Of a stretch of 30,451 bases of DNA, positions 6,945-30,451 are shown piece by piece. A program made the translations under genes and the position numbers. Each line of letters begins with the position of its first letter. Position 1 is the stretch's first letter. The DNA is from a virus. Under the pieces are notes generated by a model, which saw only the letters and a program-made list of their open reading frames with translations, was not told the origin of the DNA and did no database searches. The stretch lies in IMG/VR virus record IMGVR_UViG_3300007541_000116, positions 1 to 30,451 of that record, one strand, 5' to 3'.

Positions 6945-7664
6945 ATGAAACATTTATCAACTTATAATGAATTTATGCTAAATGAAGCTACTAATATAAA
7001 CGATCCAGTATTAATAGCATTCAGAGCAGCTAAGATTAGACGTGAAAAAGAATTGGCTACACCGACTAAATCAAAGCGCAGGCCGCTTTATGGTAAACAA
7101 AGAGAAAGGGCTGAGGATGAATTGTGGGATATTAGTCTAGAATTAAAAGATCTTTATTCTGATAGAGGTCAGATTTTAATTGACATGGAACAAGAAGCTG
7201 AAGTTGAAGGTGGGCCGATTGCAGATGAATATGGTGATAAATTGAATAAGATTGAAGATGAAATTCAAAAACTCATTGCCAAGAGAAGCCGATTAGAGAT
7301 CAGATTGGCAGAACAATTTGAATACATCACAGAAACAATGACTGATGAATCAGAAGACTTTATCTTTGAGGGCGATGTTAATTATAAATCCGACAAATTT
7401 GCGCTAGTAAGAAAGGGTGGTTCCATTGGCTCAAAACCAGAATACCCTGTATTTATAAGTGGTAAAATGGCTTCAATTATAGAAACCAGTAATGATAAAG
7501 AAGCTCTTAAAGAAAAGGCAAAGACAATGACAAAATCCCTTTCACCCGGCGAAAGAAAATATTATGGGATGGGGTATTCTGTAATAGAAATTACACCCAG
7601 AAAGGTTAAAGAAATTGACTATTTGATTGATTTTAAAAAATCATCGGAAAATGATAACGTATAA
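6945..7664 (+). CDS. Putative capsid-targeted (internal head) protein with coiled coil
   Basis: The 239-aa product begins MKHLSTYNEFMLNEA. The TYNEF-x-LNE-A segment resembles the T4 internal-protein capsid-targeting sequence MKTYQEFIAE-A, cleaved after Glu by the gp21 prohead protease (consensus Leu/Ile-x-Glu, then usually Ala or Gly). Cleavage here would fall after Glu14. A charged helical/coiled-coil region spans about residues 50-130, followed by a second site fitting the consensus, IFE142-G143. The C-terminal domain of about 97 residues (SDKFALVRKGG to IDYLIDFKK) is not recognised. Its position between two tail genes is unexpected for a head protein. Targeting and cleavage are inference from motif similarity only. 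Confidence 0.5.
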   Translation: MKHLSTYNEFMLNEATNINDPVLIAFRAAKIRREKELATPTKSKRRPLYGKQRERAEDELWDISLELKDLYSDRGQILIDMEQEAEVEGGPIADEYGDKLNKIEDEIQKLIAKRSRLEIRLAEQFEYITETMTDESEDFIFEGDVNYKSDKFALVRKGGSIGSKPEYPVFISGKMASIIETSNDKEALKEKAKTMTKSLSPGERKYYGMGYSVIEITPRKVKEIDYLIDFKKSSENDNV

Positions 7665-16700: not shown

Positions 16701-18381
16701 TAACAATAGGTATGGTTATGATAATTCATGTGAAGTAATACAACAAACTGGTACAGAGTATCAATATGAAAACGGAGTTATGTCAGGTGCAATAAGCTTT
16801 ATTTCATCTGGGCAATACATAGTAGATCCTTCACAAACACTGGTTAGAGGACAGATTGATAATAATGGAAATCCTACAAGATTCTTGTCAGAGATAAGAA
16901 TAGGACTTGATGGTAAGTATATGCCTATTCAATTTGAAATTGACGGTGATACATATCGGATTGACGGTATATCTAAAGTGTTAACAGATGATCAGTTAAT
17001 TTGTAATAACATAACCAAGAATGGAGTACCTCTATCTTTACCTCAGTTTATTCCAACTAATCTTAACCTAAGAGATGCTACTTATACCATCATAGGAAGT
17101 GGGTTTGGCGAATATGTAAATCTTTTAAATGAAGTTTCATTTGCTAAGATTTTCCAAAATGTAAACCAAGGTTCACCTAATGTAATATATGAAACTGTTG
17201 ATGCTAATGGTAATACTATACTATTGCAGAACGGTAATCTTGCACAAACATTCACCATTGAATTAGTTGCACAGGATGATATCTTAAAGTCGGTTTATAT
17301 AGGTGTTTTACCAGACCAAAATAAGCCTACTGTATTTAACCTTGTTGATATAATAGGTTATGATTTATCATTACAAAGAAGGCCTAGAATAACACCGATA
17401 GCAAGACATAGTGGATATTATGAACCTATTTCTAAAGACATCACGTTTTTTAGAGATCCGTATTTAAACATAGATTTTGATCAACCTACAACAGGTGGCA
17501 CGGGTGCAACTGGTGGAGGATTTATACCAGATGAATTATATAAGCTTCGTGTATTGGAATATACAAGATATGCTAATACCCAGTTCTATTCACAAGATCC
17601 GAGATTTGGTCAAATTAAGAGATTATTTTATCATAAAGTAAATCAAGAAGATCCTTCAAGTATTCTTGAGTTATCAAGCGATAGTCCATTCTTAAGTCTA
17701 TATCCTCTGATTAATGAAGTTGGAATAGATTACCGAGACTTTTATATTTTCTCTTCAAATTGGGAACCTGGATATTTTAGAAAGAGCATTGATAAGTCAC
17801 AAGTAATATCCGTACCAGGAACAAGATCAATGCTGGAAAAGAAATCATTCTTTGGTTCAAAGTATTTAAAGATTCCTCAGCAAATAACTCTTGAAACATT
17901 TACACCATCAGAGTTTAATCAAGAAGCAGTTTTACAATCAGATCTTGTGGATGGTACATTTATGCATAATGAAACAAGAAGTACTGTTGAATTATACCTA
18001 TTCATACAAAAGAGATTAATCGATGAATTGTTTGAACCTATTAAAGAAACCTTCATCAAGTACTTGAATCCACTATTTAGTTTTGGCGAAGAAGATACAC
18101 TAGATGATGATGTTAGAAGATACATTACACAAAACGTACTTAAACTATATAAGATAAATTCAATTGATCTGTATGTTAGATCAACAAGATCACGAGAAGG
18201 TAACGTTTACACAACAGCCGAATTGAGTAATAGTGATAAGATAAACCAGGGGTTAGTTGTAAACGGTAATTTCTCATCAAGATTACTTAACAGTAATGCC
18301 TTCGATTCTAGACTAATATATAACAAGAAAGGCGGGTTCTCAGAGGCATTTGGATTTAGTGTAACCCTAATTAAAAAATAA
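13765..18381 (+). CDS. Giant virion protein of unknown family (1538 aa)
   Basis: This is the largest gene in the window. The protein is Asn/Ser/Tyr-rich and beta-dominated, with no signal peptide or membrane segment. The N-terminus (LVRTNPKLTTNVKVV, then FKVNPNSTYDKDIYRFYQEG) reads like a capsid- or baseplate-bound structural domain. Short Gly/Thr-rich linkers occur, for example TGGTGATGGGF near residue 1245. The C-terminal part has helical segments (LIDELFEPIKETFIKYLNP). No enzyme motif is visible. Its size and place between another giant virion gene and a tail fibre suggest a peripheral baseplate, whisker or long-appendage protein. Function is not assigned. Translation starts at the ATG immediately after the stem-loop. 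Confidence 0.5.
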   Translation: MVEKILDKSSHSLVRTNPKLTTNVKVVSNGSDIFLESFSANSQLASSRFKSFKVNPNSTYDKDIYRFYQEGKFPKELAFEVFQKYEDLSVLNSYDSQYEMFYSAGAESISSESYPEDLGILAPLWLNEQIPNYFVIFRLDNPAAINNLNSTDPNANEFSAQTSIDFEKFVLENCTAIKTFDLTENSNLGKYIRNYRFQQNFPIAPLTTSWRSDEPILWNGISYRNGGFTSVGEYSYEDLITRDNTIIQNEYFFTKGFERNGVILANLLNLQFLFSDNNADEYSLNRYFGLYVNEVEEGSFDLSGEGFYKGTEKSQTPKITSITKVSDQLNEPFEIQNPNGVLLYIDDTTVETVTGIPTQQRVNEVESIFYVKDKNDQFHTIKKGSKWGTNQIRLFDKKIDISTLTGYKRPDTFANAQIINKRSSAVCTFKVLDQMPDGVSIKFYDGLNYTGEVAASSSLAVTPGTSFQAFFNPSGTVEEIAKSISLAINGGINRSNRFFEASYSGDTVYVKSLFTGSRFNRLRFEINWDEYPDANLQSYPETNESIQSTNFVGGNDVIGGLLKVEKGDEDRFRIGNFVKTKGGYAKILTYVPYLEEPIKSASEAIIGYTGINDYVLIVIDESDVLLTGSSQAALYSDFKPSFGRFSFFPIRDFDFDFYSEDYSDLGELSYESSYYNRTNGTQYIGTGTNPDIRRFYDDGGFANLIGLLRDADPDVTFDNVILSEYDRLEENYLKSQAIASRVIPYINKWGYYKEGKNVRNLPYRLSLSEAFTLYNFAPGKRAQSQSPDAFSHEWYYLSKIPTYFGTDAIEESWSYFNDIPVDSIPADPNSGTPHIPGTFQNVSRNYFDEYFIADKFTKDSDITLIDRQIRYGRFFGGNSQNFSQAFLRGVKIIAKKKALNSNKANFNAKKLAYVRDGSFNDYKFSAMMVVNSPDKPKTEIKFIKNEKWKTVTMLIFLSLSDTCINGGENYIDRTSLYSLNNRYGYDNSCEVIQQTGTEYQYENGVMSGAISFISSGQYIVDPSQTLVRGQIDNNGNPTRFLSEIRIGLDGKYMPIQFEIDGDTYRIDGISKVLTDDQLICNNITKNGVPLSLPQFIPTNLNLRDATYTIIGSGFGEYVNLLNEVSFAKIFQNVNQGSPNVIYETVDANGNTILLQNGNLAQTFTIELVAQDDILKSVYIGVLPDQNKPTVFNLVDIIGYDLSLQRRPRITPIARHSGYYEPISKDITFFRDPYLNIDFDQPTTGGTGATGGGFIPDELYKLRVLEYTRYANTQFYSQDPRFGQIKRLFYHKVNQEDPSSILELSSDSPFLSLYPLINEVGIDYRDFYIFSSNWEPGYFRKSIDKSQVISVPGTRSMLEKKSFFGSKYLKIPQQITLETFTPSEFNQEAVLQSDLVDGTFMHNETRSTVELYLFIQKRLIDELFEPIKETFIKYLNPLFSFGEEDTLDDDVRRYITQNVLKLYKINSIDLYVRSTRSREGNVYTTAELSNSDKINQGLVVNGNFSSRLLNSNAFDSRLIYNKKGGFSEAFGFSVTLIKK

Positions 18382-18389
18382 TAGCCAAC

Positions 18390-20399
18390 ATGGCCATAAC
18401 TATCAAAGAACTTTTAGCTTCTGATACTTTATCAGATGCAGTGGATAAGATTAATTTTAACTTTGACCAACTTCTATTAAATGGAGGTGGACCACAAGGA
18501 CCAAATGGTCCAATAGGACCTATTGGACCAATAGGCGGTAGAGGTATCAGAGGTACTCAATGGTTTGAAGATCCAGCATCATCTCCTGGAACAAACCCAA
18601 ATTCTCTTACCTTTGCAGATTTAGAAGAAGGTGATAATTATTTACAATCGGACGGTACCGTTTGGGAATGGAATGGTACCGTTTGGGTTGCTACATCAGT
18701 AAATCTAACAGGCCCGCAAGGTGCAGCTGGAACATCAGGATTTTCCAGATTTGGTAATCCTATCAATAATCAACAGTCTATTTACATAAGTCCAATGCCA
18801 TTGGCAGTACAGAATGGTCTGGGTGGTCTGGGTGGTGATGGGGGTGCTAGTATTGCTAATGAAGCAGTCCCTACTCTTGTCGTTGGTGGTTTTGTTAGCA
18901 TAACACCAACCGTGAGTGGCCTAACTTATCAAAAAAGTTTAATAAGTGATTCTATGGCACAAAGCATAGAATCAACTGATTGCGCTATGCTCGTTCATCA
19001 GTTGGAATCAACCTCAACGGCTATTAAGTTTATGGGTGGTGATAACATATCTGATAATTATGAACAATCCAACCTTGCAAACTTAGCATTTATTTCACTT
19101 ATCAGCGATGACAGATTATTAATACAAGTTCCTAAGGCACCAATTGATGCAAGTTCTACTTACAATTTATCAGGCTATATTGTAAGCACGATAGAAACTG
19201 GACAATATCATCAATCAGGTAAACATATACATTTTATCACAGGACAGAGTTCCAATTCATCTGGTAGTGCATTTGAGAATTCTGATTTTAGGGTAACGGT
19301 CAACAGATCAGCAGGTACCGGCATTAATCCTAGAATACTTTTAGATGTAACTTCTATTGGTGGAGGTCTCCCTGCTTCTATTAACATTGGTTCAAACACG
19401 ACAATACCTGCATCTACCACTAATACTGGATCTGTAATTGTAACAGGTGGATTAATAGGATTGACCGGATCTTCTACTATAGGTCTAACAACATCTTCTA
19501 ATATATCCCAATTAGCAGTCGGAAACATTACACTTAATTCAGGTGCTGCTATTTCCGGAACTGCCACAGGAAACATTACATTTAATTCAAATAGCACAAT
19601 CCAACTTATTGCAACAAATGATTTAACCATTGATGTAACTGACGATATCATAATAAATGGTGGTGATAACCTAACGGCTAATATTACAGATGATATTGAT
19701 ATTGATGCTGGTAATGATTTTCTTCTAAGTACATCTGGTGCAAGTAGTACATTTGAAATTAATACATTATCAAATACATCAACAGGACAATCAGGAATTA
19801 TCAGGATTCTTGCAAACACAACGTCGGCCGCCCCCGCCGGATTATATAATGCAGTCGTACCAACTGGTCCTATTAGTGCAACAGGCGCACTAGTCCCTCG
19901 GGTTAGAATAAGAATACAGGGAAATAATCACATAAGAAACAGAAACGAAACTGCAAATCCTGCAAATAACGGAGTTCAAATATTAACAGGGAAGGATGAC
20001 CACATTTTACTTAGCGGTCAAATGAGAGTTGTTGGTAGTGGTCTTTCTGGATTAACTGGGTTCGGTACAGCTACTACTATGAATTGGTTGCGAGTTGGTA
20101 AAGTTGTACATGTTAGTGGCTATGGGCAATTCCCGACATGTACAGGAGATACATTAAGAATACCAGTACCAGTTGTTACATCACAGGATAATATAAATCT
20201 TGATAGTAGCTTTGGATATGTTCCTCGCGGTACCTGTATTATAACTAGTGGATTCGGTTCATCTTTAGGTGTAGTCAGTTCATTTAATGATGGCCTAACA
20301 TTTGATATTCAAAAATGGACGGCAGGTGGGCCTGCTGCAAATTGGGATAGTGGTGATTTTTATACATTTACATTTGCATACACATTATTTGGAGGATAA
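18390..20399 (+). CDS. Tail fibre / receptor-binding protein with collagen-like and beta-structured regions
   Basis: The 669-aa product starts with the attachment-type motif shared with the protein at 6278. It then has Gly-x-Y collagen-like repeats at about residues 33-50 (GPQGPNGPIGPIGPIGG) and a shorter one near 107-116. A long Thr/Asn/Ile-rich region with regular short strands (about 330-480, for example LTIDVTDDIIINGGDN) is compatible with a triple beta-helix stalk. The C-terminal domain of about 130 residues (MNWLRVGKVVHVSGYGQ to YTFTFAYTLFGG) resembles phage fibre head domains. I infer a trimeric distal fibre that contacts the host. DNA repeats in the Gly-x-Y region are listed separately. 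A chaperone or protease tip domain was not seen. Confidence 0.7.
   Translation: MAITIKELLASDTLSDAVDKINFNFDQLLLNGGGPQGPNGPIGPIGPIGGRGIRGTQWFEDPASSPGTNPNSLTFADLEEGDNYLQSDGTVWEWNGTVWVATSVNLTGPQGAAGTSGFSRFGNPINNQQSIYISPMPLAVQNGLGGLGGDGGASIANEAVPTLVVGGFVSITPTVSGLTYQKSLISDSMAQSIESTDCAMLVHQLESTSTAIKFMGGDNISDNYEQSNLANLAFISLISDDRLLIQVPKAPIDASSTYNLSGYIVSTIETGQYHQSGKHIHFITGQSSNSSGSAFENSDFRVTVNRSAGTGINPRILLDVTSIGGGLPASINIGSNTTIPASTTNTGSVIVTGGLIGLTGSSTIGLTTSSNISQLAVGNITLNSGAAISGTATGNITFNSNSTIQLIATNDLTIDVTDDIIINGGDNLTANITDDIDIDAGNDFLLSTSGASSTFEINTLSNTSTGQSGIIRILANTTSAAPAGLYNAVVPTGPISATGALVPRVRIRIQGNNHIRNRNETANPANNGVQILTGKDDHILLSGQMRVVGSGLSGLTGFGTATTMNWLRVGKVVHVSGYGQFPTCTGDTLRIPVPVVTSQDNINLDSSFGYVPRGTCIITSGFGSSLGVVSSFNDGLTFDIQKWTAGGPAANWDSGDFYTFTFAYTLFGG
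18507..18535. repeat. Nested inverted repeats in the collagen-like region
   Basis: GGTCCAATAG (18507-18516) and CTATTGGACC (18520-18529) are perfect 10-bp inverted arms with a 3-nt spacer. An overlapping pair, CCTATTGG and CCAATAGG (18519-18535), has a 1-nt centre. They arise from alternating synonymous codons for Gly-Pro-Ile triplets and make competing hairpins. Confidence 0.7.
18654..18687 (+). repeat. 13-bp direct repeat, period 21 nt, in the fibre gene
   Basis: GGTACCGTTTGGG occurs at 18654-18666 and again at 18675-18687. It encodes the doubled GTVW unit in DGTVWEWNGTVWVA. It is an in-frame short duplication between the two collagen-like stretches. Confidence 0.7.
18816..18833 (+). repeat. 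9-bp perfect tandem repeat in the fibre gene
   Basis: GGTCTGGGT is present twice in direct succession and encodes Gly-rich NGLGGLGG. The unit length keeps frame, so slippage would change the glycine run without breaking the gene. Confidence 0.65.
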
Positions 20400-20404
20400 A
20401 AATT

Positions 20405-20665
20405 ATGAATATAGAAGAAAAACTAAGGGTTAAAGAATTCGTAAAGGAGTATAATGAAATCTTTGCGATGGCAGATCTAATGCAAAAGAGTATTGAGAGT
20501 TTAGCAAAAAAACGAGACGCTCTCTTTGATAAAGCAGAAGATCTAAAATTAGAGGAACGTAAATTCATGGATGATATGATTAAAAAATACGGTCCTGAAA
20601 ATGTAACACCTAATAAATTATTAGCAATTGTAAATGAGGATATTGGAGAACATATTAAAGAATAA
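20405..20665 (+). CDS. Small helical coiled-coil protein, unknown
   Basis: This 86-aa protein is highly charged and almost entirely helical by sequence (EEKLRVKEFVKEYNEIFAMA, then helix KKRDALFDKAEDLKLEERKF), ending in a short YGPENVTPNKLLAIVNED segment. There are no Cys residues, signal or membrane segments. Spacing from the fibre gene is 5 nt. Its 3' end overlaps the next gene by 32 nt, if that gene uses the upstream ATG. I do not recognise the family. It could be a small chaperone, a virion linker or a partner of the membrane protein that follows. Confidence 0.6.
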   Translation: MNIEEKLRVKEFVKEYNEIFAMADLMQKSIESLAKKRDALFDKAEDLKLEERKFMDDMIKKYGPENVTPNKLLAIVNEDIGEHIKE

Positions 20666-21383
20666 AGATTTCATTATGATTGTGATGATAGCAGTGTTAA
20701 TCATGCTGCTATTTAAGCAATGTGGAGTTACAGAATCTGCTCGTCAAGAAACCGAAAGAGTACTACAAAATCAAGTTGCATTAAATGATACCATAAAAAA
20801 TTATAAGACTAAGGATGGTTTAAATGCTGCAGAAAAATTGGCGCTTCGGTTAACGCTTGACGAATTAAAGGATTCACTTAACTATGAAAGGTCAAAACCA
20901 CCTATTACAATAATTGAATATGAAACCCAAATTATAGAGAATATTGTTGAAGTACCAGTTTACATTAAAAGCGATTCACTATCAGAAAGACTTGAAATCA
21001 CGCAAAGTGATAAATGGGACAAGAGTAGCAGAGAGTTAATGATTTCTATCCCATTTGAAATTAAGAATGATAGTTTATATCCGGGTCTTGCTAATATTGA
21101 GTTAAAACAAAACATTTGGTTATCTGCAAGTATTTTACAAGATAAGAAAACCAAACAAGCATATGTAAACCTATTAAGCGATTATCCAGGTTTGACTTTT
21201 AATAATGCACAAGGTATTCTCATTGAACCTGATGATAAAGGATTTAAAGGTTTAAAATACAACAGCAGAAAAACACTAAGCTTAGGTCTTCAATTAGGAA
21301 TTGGACTTAGTCCATCCTCATTAGGGTTTACGCCTTATGTAGGAGTTGGTTTAACATATAGTCCTAAATTCCTACAATGGTAA
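20634..21383 (+). CDS. Membrane-anchored protein with periplasmic coil and barrel-like C-terminus; spanin-like candidate
   Basis: The 249-aa product has a short Lys-containing N-terminus, one hydrophobic segment (about residues 14-27, IMIVMIAVLIMLLF), then KQCG and a charged helical region (about 33-80). A mixed region follows, and the C-terminus is alternating glycine-rich beta sequence (LGLQLGIGLSPSSLGF, then PYVGVGLTYSPKF) ending in Trp. Barrel-like tails of this type, ending in an aromatic residue, resemble outer-membrane signals in Gram-negative bacteria. An inner-membrane anchor, coil and outer-membrane tail would suit a one-piece spanin that fuses membranes at lysis, but this is inference. 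FKQC does not fit a lipobox well. The start may instead be ATG 20676, which would remove the 32-nt overlap. Confidence 0.55.
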   Translation: MRILENILKNKDFIMIVMIAVLIMLLFKQCGVTESARQETERVLQNQVALNDTIKNYKTKDGLNAAEKLALRLTLDELKDSLNYERSKPPITIIEYETQIIENIVEVPVYIKSDSLSERLEITQSDKWDKSSRELMISIPFEIKNDSLYPGLANIELKQNIWLSASILQDKKTKQAYVNLLSDYPGLTFNNAQGILIEPDDKGFKGLKYNSRKTLSLGLQLGIGLSPSSLGFTPYVGVGLTYSPKFLQW

Positions 21384-21405
21384 TATTGTAAATAAATAAG
21401 AGAGA

Positions 21406-22758
21406 ATGGAATCATCAAGATTTGTACAATTATCAGAAGATATACTTGTTGAGTATATCTATACCGACCAGGCAGATCCTACTATATTTAATACCAGTGC
21501 ATATCCTATCGAAATTATGAGAGATGGGTATACCAACGGTTCATACTTTTTTAATACTGCTAACGTTGCCGCAACTATGGGTAACTATCGTGATATTTCT
21601 GCTGCCGCGATAAATGCTGATAAGACCATTTATGCAAGTTTAAATACCAGTGTAGGTGTACCTTATAATGATTTCGATACTCAACTTACACCAACTAGTC
21701 AACTATTACAATCATTTGCACCTAATCTTGATATTGAGTATGATAGAATAAAAATACACTTTGTTGCTGGGTATAGTTTTGATGATTATGACGGTGTTAT
21801 ATTTGACATAACTACACAAAGAAGGGATGGTGCTCCTATTAATTTGGCTGCTATAAATTTCTTAAGAACTGATACTCCTGTATTTAATCCAGACCCATTC
21901 TTATTAGGTGGAAGATTATATGTTACTTATATTGAATGGAGAGTACCTGCCTTATTCTATATGAATAACCGGTTTGTTACAAGTAATCCTAACCTACTTT
22001 CATATAAGTTAACCGAAGGGCGAGGCTTTATACCTACACCACCAATTACAATAACTGCAAAAGGAATATCACAAACAAGAGTAGAAAACGGATTTGATTT
22101 TTATGATGTTCAGGAAATTAATAGTGTTTCTATTTTAAGTAGAGATATTTATGATAACCTATTTGCACAAGTGATTGAGTCAGAGGTAGGTGACTATTTT
22201 GAAATAAGTGGTCAAGTATTAGGTTCAAGTCTTGCTAATTTTATTGCCACATTAAATTCTCAAGGTGGAAATTATGTAGCATTTCATGATGTTAGGGTAA
22301 ATGAACAAATCGGGACAACATTCGTAGAAACAAGTGCTCAAGCATTTACACAAACCACAGATTTCGATAATCCTATTTTGTTTAGACCTATCATATTAAA
22401 TAGTGCAATAGCTGTATCTTTTTCTATTGATTATACTCTTAGACTGTTTAATAGAGATGACAGTACACAAATTGTAAAAAGAGCAAGACTCTTATCGTTT
22501 GATGTTAAAAAGTACGGAAAGAGATTAATGAAAATAAACTTAGGAACGGTACCAACTGTTGCAAAGGTTTATAATAGACTTCAGCCTGACGATGGTCGTA
22601 GAATAGTTTTAGGTGGAACTGGTGTTAATGCAGCTGAAACTTCCGATCAAATTGCGCAAAATCTTGTAGTAAGAACACAATATGTTACAAGCTTTAGGGA
22701 CAGATTAAATGTTAAAGCATCTATTTCACCAGTTAAGATTCAAAATATAACAGAGTAA
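21406..22758 (+). CDS. Virion/tail protein of unknown family (450 aa)
   Basis: This beta-rich 450-aa protein starts MESSRFVQLSEDILVEYIYT and has no catalytic motif, signal or membrane segment. Strands such as YDRIKIHFVAGYSF and LYVTYIEWRVPALF and a C-terminal region with Lys/Arg-rich strands (KKYGKRLMKINLG) fit a structural protein. Its stop overlaps the next start (TAATG), and the following two genes are a BppU-like protein and a tail-tube-fold protein, so a baseplate or tail-tip role is likely. The leader contains ATAAATA at 21392-21398, 14 nt before the ATG. I do not recognise the family. Confidence 0.55.
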   Translation: MESSRFVQLSEDILVEYIYTDQADPTIFNTSAYPIEIMRDGYTNGSYFFNTANVAATMGNYRDISAAAINADKTIYASLNTSVGVPYNDFDTQLTPTSQLLQSFAPNLDIEYDRIKIHFVAGYSFDDYDGVIFDITTQRRDGAPINLAAINFLRTDTPVFNPDPFLLGGRLYVTYIEWRVPALFYMNNRFVTSNPNLLSYKLTEGRGFIPTPPITITAKGISQTRVENGFDFYDVQEINSVSILSRDIYDNLFAQVIESEVGDYFEISGQVLGSSLANFIATLNSQGGNYVAFHDVRVNEQIGTTFVETSAQAFTQTTDFDNPILFRPIILNSAIAVSFSIDYTLRLFNRDDSTQIVKRARLLSFDVKKYGKRLMKINLGTVPTVAKVYNRLQPDDGRRIVLGGTGVNAAETSDQIAQNLVVRTQYVTSFRDRLNVKASISPVKIQNITE

Positions 22759-23582
22759 TGGCTATAAACACAAACATATCAGTTTCAGAAAGAGAGTCTC
22801 AGATTTATAAAAGATTTAAGAACCTATCAGTTAATGAGGAGATATTACCGCAAGGCGACGGTAACATAAAGATATCTCCATTTGACGATTATGTTCTATT
22901 TACTCTGTATGATGAGACCGATGGTGAAGATACACCAATTGACTTATCAAATGTTGGCATGTTATACTTAACATTTATTGGAGAAACTGATGAAATACGA
23001 ATCCCTTATTTTACAAATGTAGAAGAACTTAATCTTGCGCAAGGACAAGTTTTGTTTAGAATTTCAAAAGAAGACAGTAAAAAGATCTTAGCATTAGATA
23101 ATAATAACTTCTATGTATCTTCGGCTATGACCTCGGCCGACGGCGCAGAATCGGATGAAAGTGTAATTTACACAGGTACATTTTCTTCTTTAACTGAGGC
23201 TGCCAGAAAGAGTTTAACCAGTACTATTGAAGAAGATAGGCTTCAATTTTCAAGAGAGCTTGCTACACTACAAACAGAAAATGCAGATCTTAAGTCACAA
23301 ATTGAACAGTTAACACAAATAATAGGTGAATTGATTACTACAATTGATACCTTAGATAAAAGTAACGCCGAACTTTCTAATGTGGTTGATGAATTGACAA
23401 AAGAAGCAACCAGTGAAAAAATAGAAGAAATTCAAAGAAGAGCTAGAGAAGCGCAAGCAGCATCAGAAACAGCTAAGAAAAATATACAAAAGAGTAAAAT
23501 TCTACAAGGGAAAGTTTCGGCTAGACCAGTTTCACAAAGTTCTATTAATAATGCAGCTAATAACTTACAAACATACTCATAA
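22758..23582 (+). CDS. BppU-like N-terminal domain plus long coiled coil; baseplate protein
   Basis: The 274-aa product has an N-terminal beta domain (about residues 30-150; ISPFDDYVLFTLYDETDGED, IDLSNVGMLYLTFIG, LAQGQVLFRISKED) resembling the BppU or Ig-like N-terminal domain of phage baseplate upper proteins. In those, a description of material properties in strand form precedes a stalk. Then comes a coiled coil (about 160-245; LQTENADLKSQIEQLTQIIG) and an Ala/Gln-rich C-terminal tail (AREAQAASETAKKN). It overlaps the upstream stop as TAATG and lies 2 nt from the tail-tube-fold gene. I infer that it connects tail or baseplate to an appendage. The BppU match is by eye. Confidence 0.55.
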   Translation: MAINTNISVSERESQIYKRFKNLSVNEEILPQGDGNIKISPFDDYVLFTLYDETDGEDTPIDLSNVGMLYLTFIGETDEIRIPYFTNVEELNLAQGQVLFRISKEDSKKILALDNNNFYVSSAMTSADGAESDESVIYTGTFSSLTEAARKSLTSTIEEDRLQFSRELATLQTENADLKSQIEQLTQIIGELITTIDTLDKSNAELSNVVDELTKEATSEKIEEIQRRAREAQAASETAKKNIQKSKILQGKVSARPVSQSSINNAANNLQTYS

Positions 23583-24139: not shown

Positions 24140-24160
24140 TATATAAACAAATAAATAGAT

Positions 24161-24517
24161 ATGAAAACATTTAAAGATTATCTTTCTGAAAATAAATCTG
24201 ATGCAACTGACATACTTAATACACTAAACGAATCATATGAATTAACTGCTGAGCAGGAAGCAGAAATTGATAAAGCAGTTGAAAGAATCTTGGAAGGTCA
24301 TAAAAACGGTGAAGATCTTGAAAAGATGATGGAAGAGATTGTTAACGAAGGTATTTTAGGATCTATATTAGGTGGTTTAACAGGATTTGCATTAGGAAAG
24401 ACTATTGGAAAAACAATAGCTAAAGTTTTAGGTATTGAGAAAGGCGTTTTATACGATTTGCTAACTAGTCGTTTAGTTGGAGCTGCGTTAGGTTCTGCTA
24501 TCGGCAAAAAGATTTAA
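24161..24517 (+). CDS. Putative capsid-targeted peptide with C-terminal glycine zipper
   Basis: The 118-aa product begins MKTFKDYLSE-N. This resembles the T4 internal protein leader MKTYQEFIAE-A and places a Leu-Ser-Glu prohead-protease type site at exactly residue 10. The acidic helical middle (about 11-62) contains further Ile/Leu-x-Glu sites (ILE45-G46) and the related IVNE63-G64. The last 55 residues are neutral to basic, hydrophobic and glycine-patterned (GILGSILGGLTGFALGKTIG, later VGAALGSAIGKKI). This is the glycine-zipper pattern seen in membrane-inserting or self-associating peptides. Cleavage would free this segment. Inference: a packaged precursor whose C-terminal peptide is delivered with the DNA. 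The next gene starts 2 nt later. Confidence 0.55.
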   Translation: MKTFKDYLSENKSDATDILNTLNESYELTAEQEAEIDKAVERILEGHKNGEDLEKMMEEIVNEGILGSILGGLTGFALGKTIGKTIAKVLGIEKGVLYDLLTSRLVGAALGSAIGKKI

Positions 24518-26621: not shown

Positions 26622-27692
26622 ATGACCACATCTGAAATAGGATCTAATATGAGAACCCGGATTATTGATAAAGTAGTCCGGGTTCTTTATAAATCTCACT
26701 CTCACCATCAAAAAAGAGAATATCTTGAGGGTCGGGATAGGCTAAACTTTGCATGTCCCTATTGTGGTGATTCTACTTCTGATCATAGAAAGAAGCGAGG
26801 TAATCTTTATTGGAATGACTTATACTTTCACTGTTATAATTGTGGAACTCATAAGTCGCTAGATGACTTTCTTAAAGACTTTGATAATAATTTTGAAGGT
26901 GAAGATAGAATTTCAATCATAAACTACATTAAGGAAAATCGAAAACACATTCAACATGGACAAAGTCTTAACTTTTATCTTTTTGATAAGATTGAAGAAT
27001 TATCATTATCATTCGATGATCTTACCACAGCATTTAACATTTATCGAATAAACGAGGCAACATATAGGGCATATCCTTATTTAAAGAGCAGACTTTTACA
27101 TAACAAATTAAATAAGTTTGCATATGATCCAAGAAGAAGAGAACTTTATGTTTTTAATCTAGATACTAAGAATAAAATTATAGGGTTTCAGATTAGACCT
27201 CTTGAAAGTACGGGTGGTCCTAAGTACAGAACATGGAATCTTGAAAGAATTTATGAAAAACTCAATCTAAAATTAGACGTTGAACCTTCTATACTTGAGG
27301 ATCTTAATAAGATATCAATGATATTTGGAATTCTTCAAATTGATATGAGCAGATCTTTCACAGTATTTGAAGGTCCTATAGATTCTTTCTTTATGTACAA
27401 TTCATTAGGTATGACGGGTGTAAAGAAACAAATAATTGAATTTGATGATATTCCTACTGTGAGGTATTTTTTTGATAATGACATTGAAGGTAAAAGTAGG
27501 ATGATAGATAAACTTAAGTCAAATCAGACTGTCTTTATGTGGAAGAAGTTACTTGATGATTTTTCTATCCCTTCAAAAAAGATAAAGGACTTAAACGACT
27601 TGGTGAAATATGAATATAAAAACAGAACAGGGTGCTTATCAAATTTGGATAGGTATTTTACAAACGATCCCTTAGATATTATTTTTATATGA
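26622..27692 (+). CDS. 61: DNA primase, gp61-like
   Basis: The 356-aa protein is close to T4 gp61 (342 aa), which makes RNA primers with the gp41 helicase. A zinc ribbon is visible: CPYCGD (Cys45, Cys48) and CYNCG (Cys71, Cys74). A Toprim-type catalytic core follows with Glu250 in FTVFEGPIDSFFMYN and the acidic pair in YFFDNDIEGK (Asp285, Asp287). The ATG at 26622 is 2 nt after the gp32 stop; an alternative ATG at 26649 is just before a strong hairpin. The 3' end overlaps the next gene by ATGA, so expression is coupled to UvsY and UvsW. No helicase domain is fused to it. Confidence 0.85.
   Translation: MTTSEIGSNMRTRIIDKVVRVLYKSHSHHQKREYLEGRDRLNFACPYCGDSTSDHRKKRGNLYWNDLYFHCYNCGTHKSLDDFLKDFDNNFEGEDRISIINYIKENRKHIQHGQSLNFYLFDKIEELSLSFDDLTTAFNIYRINEATYRAYPYLKSRLLHNKLNKFAYDPRRRELYVFNLDTKNKIIGFQIRPLESTGGPKYRTWNLERIYEKLNLKLDVEPSILEDLNKISMIFGILQIDMSRSFTVFEGPIDSFFMYNSLGMTGVKKQIIEFDDIPTVRYFFDNDIEGKSRMIDKLKSNQTVFMWKKLLDDFSIPSKKIKDLNDLVKYEYKNRTGCLSNLDRYFTNDPLDIIFI
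26652..26690 (+). terminator. Strong hairpin with short U-rich tail at the 5' end of the primase gene
   Basis: AGAACCCGGA (26652-26661) and TCCGGGTTCT (26677-26686) are perfect 10-bp arms. The stem extends inward by five more pairs (two G-U) to a GATAA loop (26667-26671), giving about 15 bp, then TTAT. It is GC-rich amid AT-rich DNA and lies 33 nt after the gp32 stop. It looks like a partial terminator/attenuator separating abundant gp32 from the scarcer primase, although it sits inside the primase ORF. A translation-control hairpin blocking ATG 26649 is the alternative. Confidence 0.55.
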
Positions 27693-27904
27693 TAAAAACA
27701 TATAATGAATTTGTGAACGAAGAATTGGATGAATTTTTTCAAGATGCTTATGATAGCAATAAAAAACTTAAGCTTATACCTAAGTTTAAGTCAGACTTAA
27801 ATGATGTATCTTTATCCAAAGATATTGAAATTGAAGCACCTAAGAAAAAGTTTAAGCCTAAAGTAAAGATAATGAATAAAAAACAAGATAAAGGTATTTT
27901 CTGA
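27689..27904 (+). CDS. Small putative capsid-targeted basic protein
   Basis: The 71-aa product begins MIKTYNEFVNEELDEFF; KTYNEFVNE closely resembles the T4 internal-protein leader KTYQEFIAE. A protease site after Glu11 would have Val at position -3 instead of Leu/Ile, so cleavage is less sure. The C-terminal third is strongly basic (PKKKFKPKVKIMNKKQDKG), as in DNA-associated internal head proteins. It overlaps the primase by ATGA and UvsY by TGATG. A small head protein inside a replication operon is unusual. An alternative is a small replication accessory factor whose leader-like sequence is a coincidence. No other motif is seen. Confidence 0.55.
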   Translation: MIKTYNEFVNEELDEFFQDAYDSNKKLKLIPKFKSDLNDVSLSKDIEIEAPKKKFKPKVKIMNKKQDKGIF

Positions 27905-29858: not shown

Positions 29859-29901
29859 GTTAATCTAGGTAGATATATAAAAAAACAAAAAATAAAAAGA
29901 A

Positions 29902-30451
29902 ATGGCTAGAAACGTAAAAAAGTTTTCTGACTTAATCACCGAGTCTGAAAATAAGCGCTCTGATATCATGGGAATTATTAATAAGCTTGGTTATTCAAGT
30001 ATTGATGAAATCAAAAAGGAAAAAAGCATTCTTTCTAAATTAGAGGCTCTTTTAAAAGAACTGCCAGGCATGCAAGATGTTTCGGAAGATGAAGCCGAAG
30101 ATATTGAAGATGGAATTAAGAAAGATGGTGAACCTAAATCTATAGAAGATAAGGAAGGTGAATTTGAAGAAGACTTTGAATCTGCTGAAGATGGTGAAGT
30201 TGCTGAAGATGCCGCCGAAGAAATTGAAGATGACACAGTAAAGACTGGAGAGCCTACCGAATTAGATGATGAAGAGGGTGAAGAGCTGGTGGATGATGAA
30301 GAAGATGTACAATCAACACCAGGAAAGTCTGCTGATGCTGATGCTGGTACAGAAATTCCTAAAAAGAGAATTCTTTCATTTGATGAATTTGTTGCAGGTA
30401 ATCCAAACCCTGCAGGTTACCCAAAACTGGGTGGAGAATCTGATGATCTTG
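29902..30451 (+). CDS. Acidic protein, possibly head scaffold or internal protein (3' end outside window)
   Basis: An ATG at 29902 opens a frame that runs off the window after 183 codons. The N-terminus MARNVKKFSDLITE-S again has the leader-like pattern, with Ile-Thr-Glu14 as possible prohead-protease site. A helical part follows (about 16-60), then a very acidic region with two 23-residue related units at 65-87 and 105-127 (both contain IED and GEP and end EGE), 40 residues apart. Residues 155-165 (KRILSFDEFVA) echo the leader motif inside the protein. Acidity and the leader suggest a prohead core or internal head protein; this is inference. The leader 29859-29901 is A-rich with no Shine-Dalgarno sequence. 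Confidence 0.6.
   Translation, partial: MARNVKKFSDLITESENKRSDIMGIINKLGYSSIDEIKKEKSILSKLEALLKELPGMQDVSEDEAEDIEDGIKKDGEPKSIEDKEGEFEEDFESAEDGEVAEDAAEEIEDDTVKTGEPTELDDEEGEELVDDEEDVQSTPGKSADADAGTEIPKKRILSFDEFVAGNPNPAGYPKLGGESDDL

Follow-up and report, generated by a model that had tools for sequence, protein, structure and literature searches.

Scaffold-repeat-like N-terminal leaders as candidate head-loading tags in a marine T4-like phage and its huge relatives

Four proteins encoded by a marine T4-like phage begin with leaders resembling the capsid-targeting (CTS) leaders of phage T4. These leaders probably belong to a T4-type cargo-loading system, much expanded in this lineage, in which the tag resembles one repeat of the head scaffold; docking, cleavage, packaging and ejection would be the predicted steps. 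By analogy with T4, proteins bearing the tag are expected to be targeted to the head, cleaved, packaged and ejected.

The window analyzed here is an entire viral contig of 30,451 bases, which is fragmentary and lacks head genes. Its genes run from a baseplate gene resembling gp6 and further probable tail genes to genes for RuvC-like, GroES-like, gp32-like, primase, UvsY-like and UvsW-like proteins. Nearly the entire window was syntenic with a 181,663-base contig (G001), at approximately 143-175 kb of the latter, and the right half of the window also with an 88,677-base contig (G013); most proteins common to the window and these contigs were 38-77% identical. The nearest database record was LR756500, an uncultured 462-kb phage. 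Megablast of the right-hand window end against phage records returned no match, and profile searches of all four leader proteins returned no informative family. The original prediction placed the tagged genes between tail and replication genes, an arrangement that holds locally in the window but not in relatives, where tagged genes are scattered genome-wide.

Leaders encoded in the window

The leaders predicted at 6945, 24161, 27689 and 29902 are present in the translated sequence exactly as described: MKHLSTYNEFMLNE/AT (6945), MKTFKDYLSE/NK (24161), MIKTYNEFVNE/EL (27689) and MARNVKKFSDLITE/SE (29902), where the slash marks the predicted cut. Their quality is unequal: the 24161 and 27689 leaders are canonical and conserved, while the other two depart from the strict pattern. 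In T4 IPIII, residues 4 and 7 govern targeting and residues 8 and 10 govern processing (PMC9026906). The equivalent aromatics are F4 and Y7 in 24161, Y5 and F8 in 27689, Y7 and F10 in 6945, and F8 only in 29902. After the second aromatic, the cleavage motif reads L-S-E in 24161, V-N-E (a variant) in 27689, L-N-E shifted by one in 6945, and I-T-E in 29902. Both targeting aromatics are conserved in 24161 and 27689, the conserved leader positions in these two families are the equivalents of IPIII residues 4, 7, 8 and 10, and 24161 has L/I-x-E (L-S-E) directly after the second aromatic. Of the four, 24161 and 27689 support the description as T4-type capsid-targeting leaders, and for 6945 it is plausible; 29902, for which the case is weaker, has the look of an acidic, multiply cleaved core-type protein.

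The 24161 protein (24161..24517, + strand) contains 118 residues: the leader, a variable linker, a second L-N-E/S site and a glycine-rich, hydrophobic C-terminal half. The leader (residues 1-10, 24161..24190, + strand; predicted cut after E10) was identified by conservation and as the top match of a scaffold-repeat matrix. The second conserved site, L-N-E (residues 21-24, 24221..24232, + strand), was identified by conservation and may allow a second cut before S25. In total, 243 relatives of this protein were found in viral contigs, and the leader, which keeps all four targeting and cleavage residues of the T4 CTS, was conserved across 81 sequences. Among 43 distinct coding sequences, mean entropy was 0.09 bits at residues 1-10, 1.40 bits at residues 11-21 and 0.55-0.99 bits in the remainder beyond residue 25; L22, N23, E24 and S25 were near-invariant (0.16 bits) and flanked by variable stretches. 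Codons of the invariant residues differed synonymously, so the constraint on the leader is at the peptide level. The LR756500 relative has a longer N-terminus, yet carries FKTFNSFVNE/N. The G013 copy reads MKTFKDFKQE/G and lacks L/I-x-E, and no leader is present in the Lak phage relatives; the tag is therefore dispensable to this protein family. The gene adjoins a tail gene in synteny. The structure model was of low confidence (69 pLDDT), and a fold search with it found no match. The C-terminal half (window 24350-24514) is glycine-zipper-like, with a sub-threshold Pfam score, and it is this part whose conservation extends to the Lak phages; it may have a membrane role after ejection.

The 27689 protein (27689..27904, + strand) contains 71 residues, is encoded between the primase and UvsY genes, and carries its leader at 27689-27721. 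Across 33 sequences, Y5, F8, V9 and E11 were held and residues 6, 7 and 10 varied. Its V-N-E differs from the T4 consensus of L/I-x-E; V was present at this position in 22 of 117 scaffold repeats.

The 6945 protein (6945..7664, + strand; 239 residues) is a probable two-domain cargo polyprotein. Its leader (6945-6986) has one additional residue between the second aromatic and L-x-E. A leader-like site, FEYITE/T (7317..7334, + strand), lies at the domain junction; in alignment, its Glu coincides with that of the N-terminal leader borne by a stand-alone second domain (L220). This second domain stands alone in other contigs with leaders of its own (MERIKSYTEFINE/S and MKHIQNFDNFINE/S), and the first domain was found within a longer protein, after FDSFLNE/A (L211). 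Similarly, the last domain of a 577-residue G001 relative of the 29902 protein occurs on its own in G013, as a protein of 72 residues bearing the leader MARLLGFNDFLNE/N. Domain exchange of this kind would be expected of a portable loading-and-cutting signal. The 6945 gene is an accessory insertion, since G001 lacks it between its two conserved neighbors. The first domain (NDPVLxxxRAAK ... IDMEQEAEPEGGPIA) is also part of numerous larger proteins of phages (L210-L254), usually directly after an x-E site. Flavobacterium phage immuto gp079 (L255 24006-26531), four genes before terL, also has part of this domain; immuto was rejected as a source of proteomics, its protease being separate and tag enrichment absent.

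The 29902 protein (29902..30451, + strand) is acidic, runs off the window end and has its leader-like sequence at 29902-29943. An internal FDEFVAG (30379..30399, + strand) corresponds to FAEFVAE/K and FEDFIKE/K in a comparable internal context in relatives. A closer relative reads RIKKFSELLTE/S; distant relatives keep only the I-x-E/S site, without the double aromatic. In both G013 and G001, the protein is strongly acidic and contains two internal motif sites. Judged from these sequences, 29902 is less likely to be a payload than an acidic core-type protein that undergoes cleavage, and its relatives share their acidity with T4 gp67, a likeness to a cleaved core component.

Among called window genes, a late-promoter-like TATATAAA box was found only upstream of 24161 (24140..24147, + strand) and 29902 (29874..29881, + strand). 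In G001 the box lies upstream of the portal gene, the protease-scaffold gene and several tagged genes. It was modestly enriched upstream of tagged genes (9 of 41 vs. 85 of 1,065, p 0.006); with several boxes tested, this result is no more than suggestive. No enrichment upstream of tagged genes was seen for the T4 late box TATAAATA. The TATATAAA boxes suggestively fit late expression alongside head genes.

Protease-scaffold fusion in relatives

The original prediction depended on a gp21-type prohead protease being encoded in the genome. The 30-kb fragment lacks such a gene, but both syntenic contigs, G001 and G013, have one, as does LR756500. The G001 gene (18182-19903) encodes a Peptidase S77 (PF03420) protein (55.1 bits vs. 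a cut-off of 27) and lies between the portal and major capsid protein genes; the order is the same in LR756500. The profile of its family had a single PDB match, T4 gp21 (5jbl, E 1e-4), which was also the best match in a fold search with the structure model, used for the protease fold only as confidence in its scaffold part was low. By sequence, fold and gene position, the G001 protein is a gp21/MEROPS S77 prohead protease.

This polypeptide of 573 residues consists of the protease followed by nine 14-residue repeats, YSEYLAENLDKSI and variants. Of the 31 relatives examined, 29 had nine repeats; another had ten, and the last an unbroken run of seven. Repeat positions 1, 4, 5 and 7 (Y, Y/H, L/I/V, E) are the leader positions. 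A separate gp22-type scaffold gene beside gp21 was not found in G001 or LR756500; the repeats lie within the protease polypeptide. The motif-like repeats and the gene position suggest that this region is a scaffold cleaved at many sites. As with T4 gp21 and gp22, an S77 protease encoded between the portal and the major capsid protein is combined with a coiled, predicted-helical scaffold with many putative cut sites. T4 encodes the two as separate genes, whereas in this lineage they form a single polypeptide, whose repeats are regular, 14 residues long and 9-13 in number.

A related protease was present in 1,275 phage records. Just two of these, LR756500 and the 634-kb LR745206, covered 80% or more of the fusion in alignment, and phages of 636, 642 and 735 kb covered 71-75%. 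In the best cultured protease matches, headed by Salmonella phage SE_PL, protease and scaffold are encoded by separate genes. The repeat array is degenerate in LR756500 and clean, with 12-13 repeats, in the 642- and 735-kb phages. Most of the smaller relatives had 9 repeats, and phages of 462 to 735 kb had 12-13 (L107 8001-9719, L260, L259, LR756500 226725-228623); in this handful of genomes it looks as if scaffold repeat number follows capsid size.

The N-terminus of the major capsid protein (G001 20011-21939; relatives L106-L185) contains two conserved candidate cut sites, LINE/A and HNLNE/S. Directly 3' of the capsid gene, G001 22041-23111 encodes a protein with the leader KTYSEFLNE/G and the motif SFEYVAE/S near its C-terminus; because of these two motifs, both ends of the protein may be cut.

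During head assembly, an N-terminal aromatic-xx-aromatic-aliphatic-x-Glu peptide would draw unrelated proteins into the prohead core, which would consist of the gp21-type protease and, joined to it in one polypeptide, the scaffold of 14-residue repeats. Since the repeats carry an almost identical motif, the tag probably docks like a single detached repeat, and we infer, as a new proposal, that it acts by imitating one. The protease would cut behind Glu in scaffold repeats and leaders alike, the scaffold would be cleared, and the cargo would remain with the DNA and be ejected into the host. Of the window proteins, 24161, 27689 and probably 6945 would be cargo, and 29902 would probably be a cleaved core protein.

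Leaders that are cleavage propeptides only, the motif marking the protease cut site and prohead entry depending on other contacts, would also account for a conserved Glu and aliphatic residue, which suit gp21 specificity, and for like sites inside proteins and at the two major capsid positions. This reading is nonetheless unlikely, because the two aromatics, which are targeting positions in T4 IPIII (PMC9026906), are as conserved as the cleavage residues, and many unrelated folds have the leader alone in common. A targeting tag that is also cleaved remains the preferred reading. The tag is like the CTS of T4 IPI-IPIII, which gp21 processes, in its position, in its length of approximately 10 residues, in having Glu at the cut as well as the four functional residues, and in that the lineage has a gp21-type protease. 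Unlike the T4 CTS, 24161 has a second site after a linker, and the scaffold of this lineage comprises leader-like repeats fused to the protease.

Leader motif in the window and across genomes

A T4-style pattern, [FY]x[EDNQKST][FYLI][ILVM]xE ending at residue 8-18, was found in 3 of the 25 window proteins (0.09 expected from the interior rate), and the strict aromatic-xx-aromatic-aliphatic-x-E pattern in two (0.15 expected). Both patterns were devised after the claim was seen, so independent tests were needed. A matrix was built from 117 distinct scaffold repeats of relatives, with leaders kept out of training, and whole proteomes were scanned. In the window, the 24161 leader ranked first of 9,616 positions at 9.3 bits (best non-leader 3.8), 27689 ranked sixth and 29902 twelfth; the 6945 N-terminal leader was not recovered from the window proteome. 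Shuffled window N-termini attained 9.3 bits in 14 of 2,000 trials. The same matrix ranked the T4 IPII and IPIII leaders fourth and fifth of 51,101 positions, and the strict pattern in T4 also found the gp23 cleavage site FGSFLTE/AEIGG (E65). T4 gp61.1 (NC_000866, 18966-19130, gene 61.1; L186), a hypothetical protein of 54 residues, resembles an unrecognized CTS-tagged protein because its N-terminus reads MKTFKEFIKE/D.

Recovery of the leaders by a matrix of scaffold repeats bears on whether head assembly is involved at all. A regulatory N-terminus, or a signal directing proteins elsewhere in the infected cell (membrane, replication site or compartment), might be considered given the position of 24161 beside a tail gene and of 27689 between primase and UvsY genes. 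It is improbable, however, as the motif is tandemly repeated in a protein fused to the head protease, and its T4 relatives are known head substrates.

The strict motif ending at residue 8-18 was then counted genome-wide, with the interior rate of the same proteins as expectation. Observed counts, approximate because genes were called by a simple longest-ORF rule, were 5 in G013 (0.33 expected), 5 in G001 (0.66), 9 in the freshwater relative G012 (0.54), 23 in the 462-kb LR756500 (1.9), 29 in the 642-kb LR756502 (3.3) and 53 in the 735-kb LR756501 (3.0; P 3e-46). N-terminal shuffles of LR756502 and LR756501 gave means of 2.5-3.0 and a maximum of 8. No enrichment was found in the control phages immuto (1 observed, 0.63 expected), 50 kb of phiKZ (0, 0.10) and lambda (0, 0.23). 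The size of LR756501 matches the 735-kb genome that was the largest phage genome as of 2020 (PMC7162821). T4 has three tagged proteins compared with 23 to 53, enzymes and repeat proteins included, in the large relatives. Copying of tags as recent DNA cassettes was generally unsupported, since LR756500 leaders differ by synonymous codons; a few neighbors are near-identical.

Chance resemblance among N-termini of K-, F-, Y- and E-rich proteins from an AT-rich genome, suggested by just 2-3 of 25 window proteins matching post hoc patterns and by the departures of 6945 and 29902 from the strict form, is disfavored for 24161 and 27689 and scarcely credible overall, given conservation over 81 (24161) and 33 (27689) sequences with synonymous codon change, enrichment in relatives down to P 3e-46, agreeing shuffle controls and negative control phages.

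Tagged proteins and their possible role

The majority of tagged proteins had no family assignment. Tags were found on leucine-rich repeats, a DUF2201 metallopeptidase-VWA protein, polynucleotide 3'-phosphatase, ATP-grasp, DUF5661, DUF5824, DUF5856, radical SAM and DHH proteins, methyltransferases, T4-type RNA ligase 1 and polyphosphate kinase 2 (PPK2), and a looser leader on a cytidylyltransferase. The tagged RNA ligase 1 is at L324 11690-12958 (LR756502), and the tagged polynucleotide 3'-phosphatase at L007 23091-23720 (LR756500). In T4, these two types of enzyme serve in tRNA repair; packaged repair enzymes could therefore immediately counter host (anticodon) nucleases.

In other large phages, phiKZ and SPN3US, numerous proteins undergo proteolytic processing and are packaged and ejected (PMC5694885, PMC13282480). 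SPN3US has several propeptides of more than 100 residues and no confirmed counterpart of gp22 (PMC5694885). The tags described here, in comparison, are 9-16 residues long and scaffold-repeat-like, and none was present in the 50 kb of phiKZ tested. A literature search, most subscription journals lying outside it, found no paper tying the CTS to this huge-phage lineage, and a literature text search for the exact leader strings gave no match.

The tags may, with about even chances, reflect a general cargo-loading code: a protein joined to a scaffold-repeat unit would co-assemble with the core, be freed by the cut that destroys the scaffold and be delivered with the DNA. Huge phages would have expanded this code to tens of cargoes (approximately 50 at 735 kb), including nucleic-acid repair enzymes that might immediately oppose host defenses.

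If true, the tag would provide a readable rule to tell which of the numerous uncharacterized proteins in huge T4-like phages are carried in the virion and act at infection onset, and T4 capsid targeting would gain a concrete sequence hypothesis, namely that the tag mimics a scaffold unit. The non-DNA contents of very large capsids would become a testable list, and the tags would be usable for loading chosen proteins into large phage heads. The presence of the tag in dozens of proteins of the largest known phage genome suggests that many ready-made proteins are carried into hosts.
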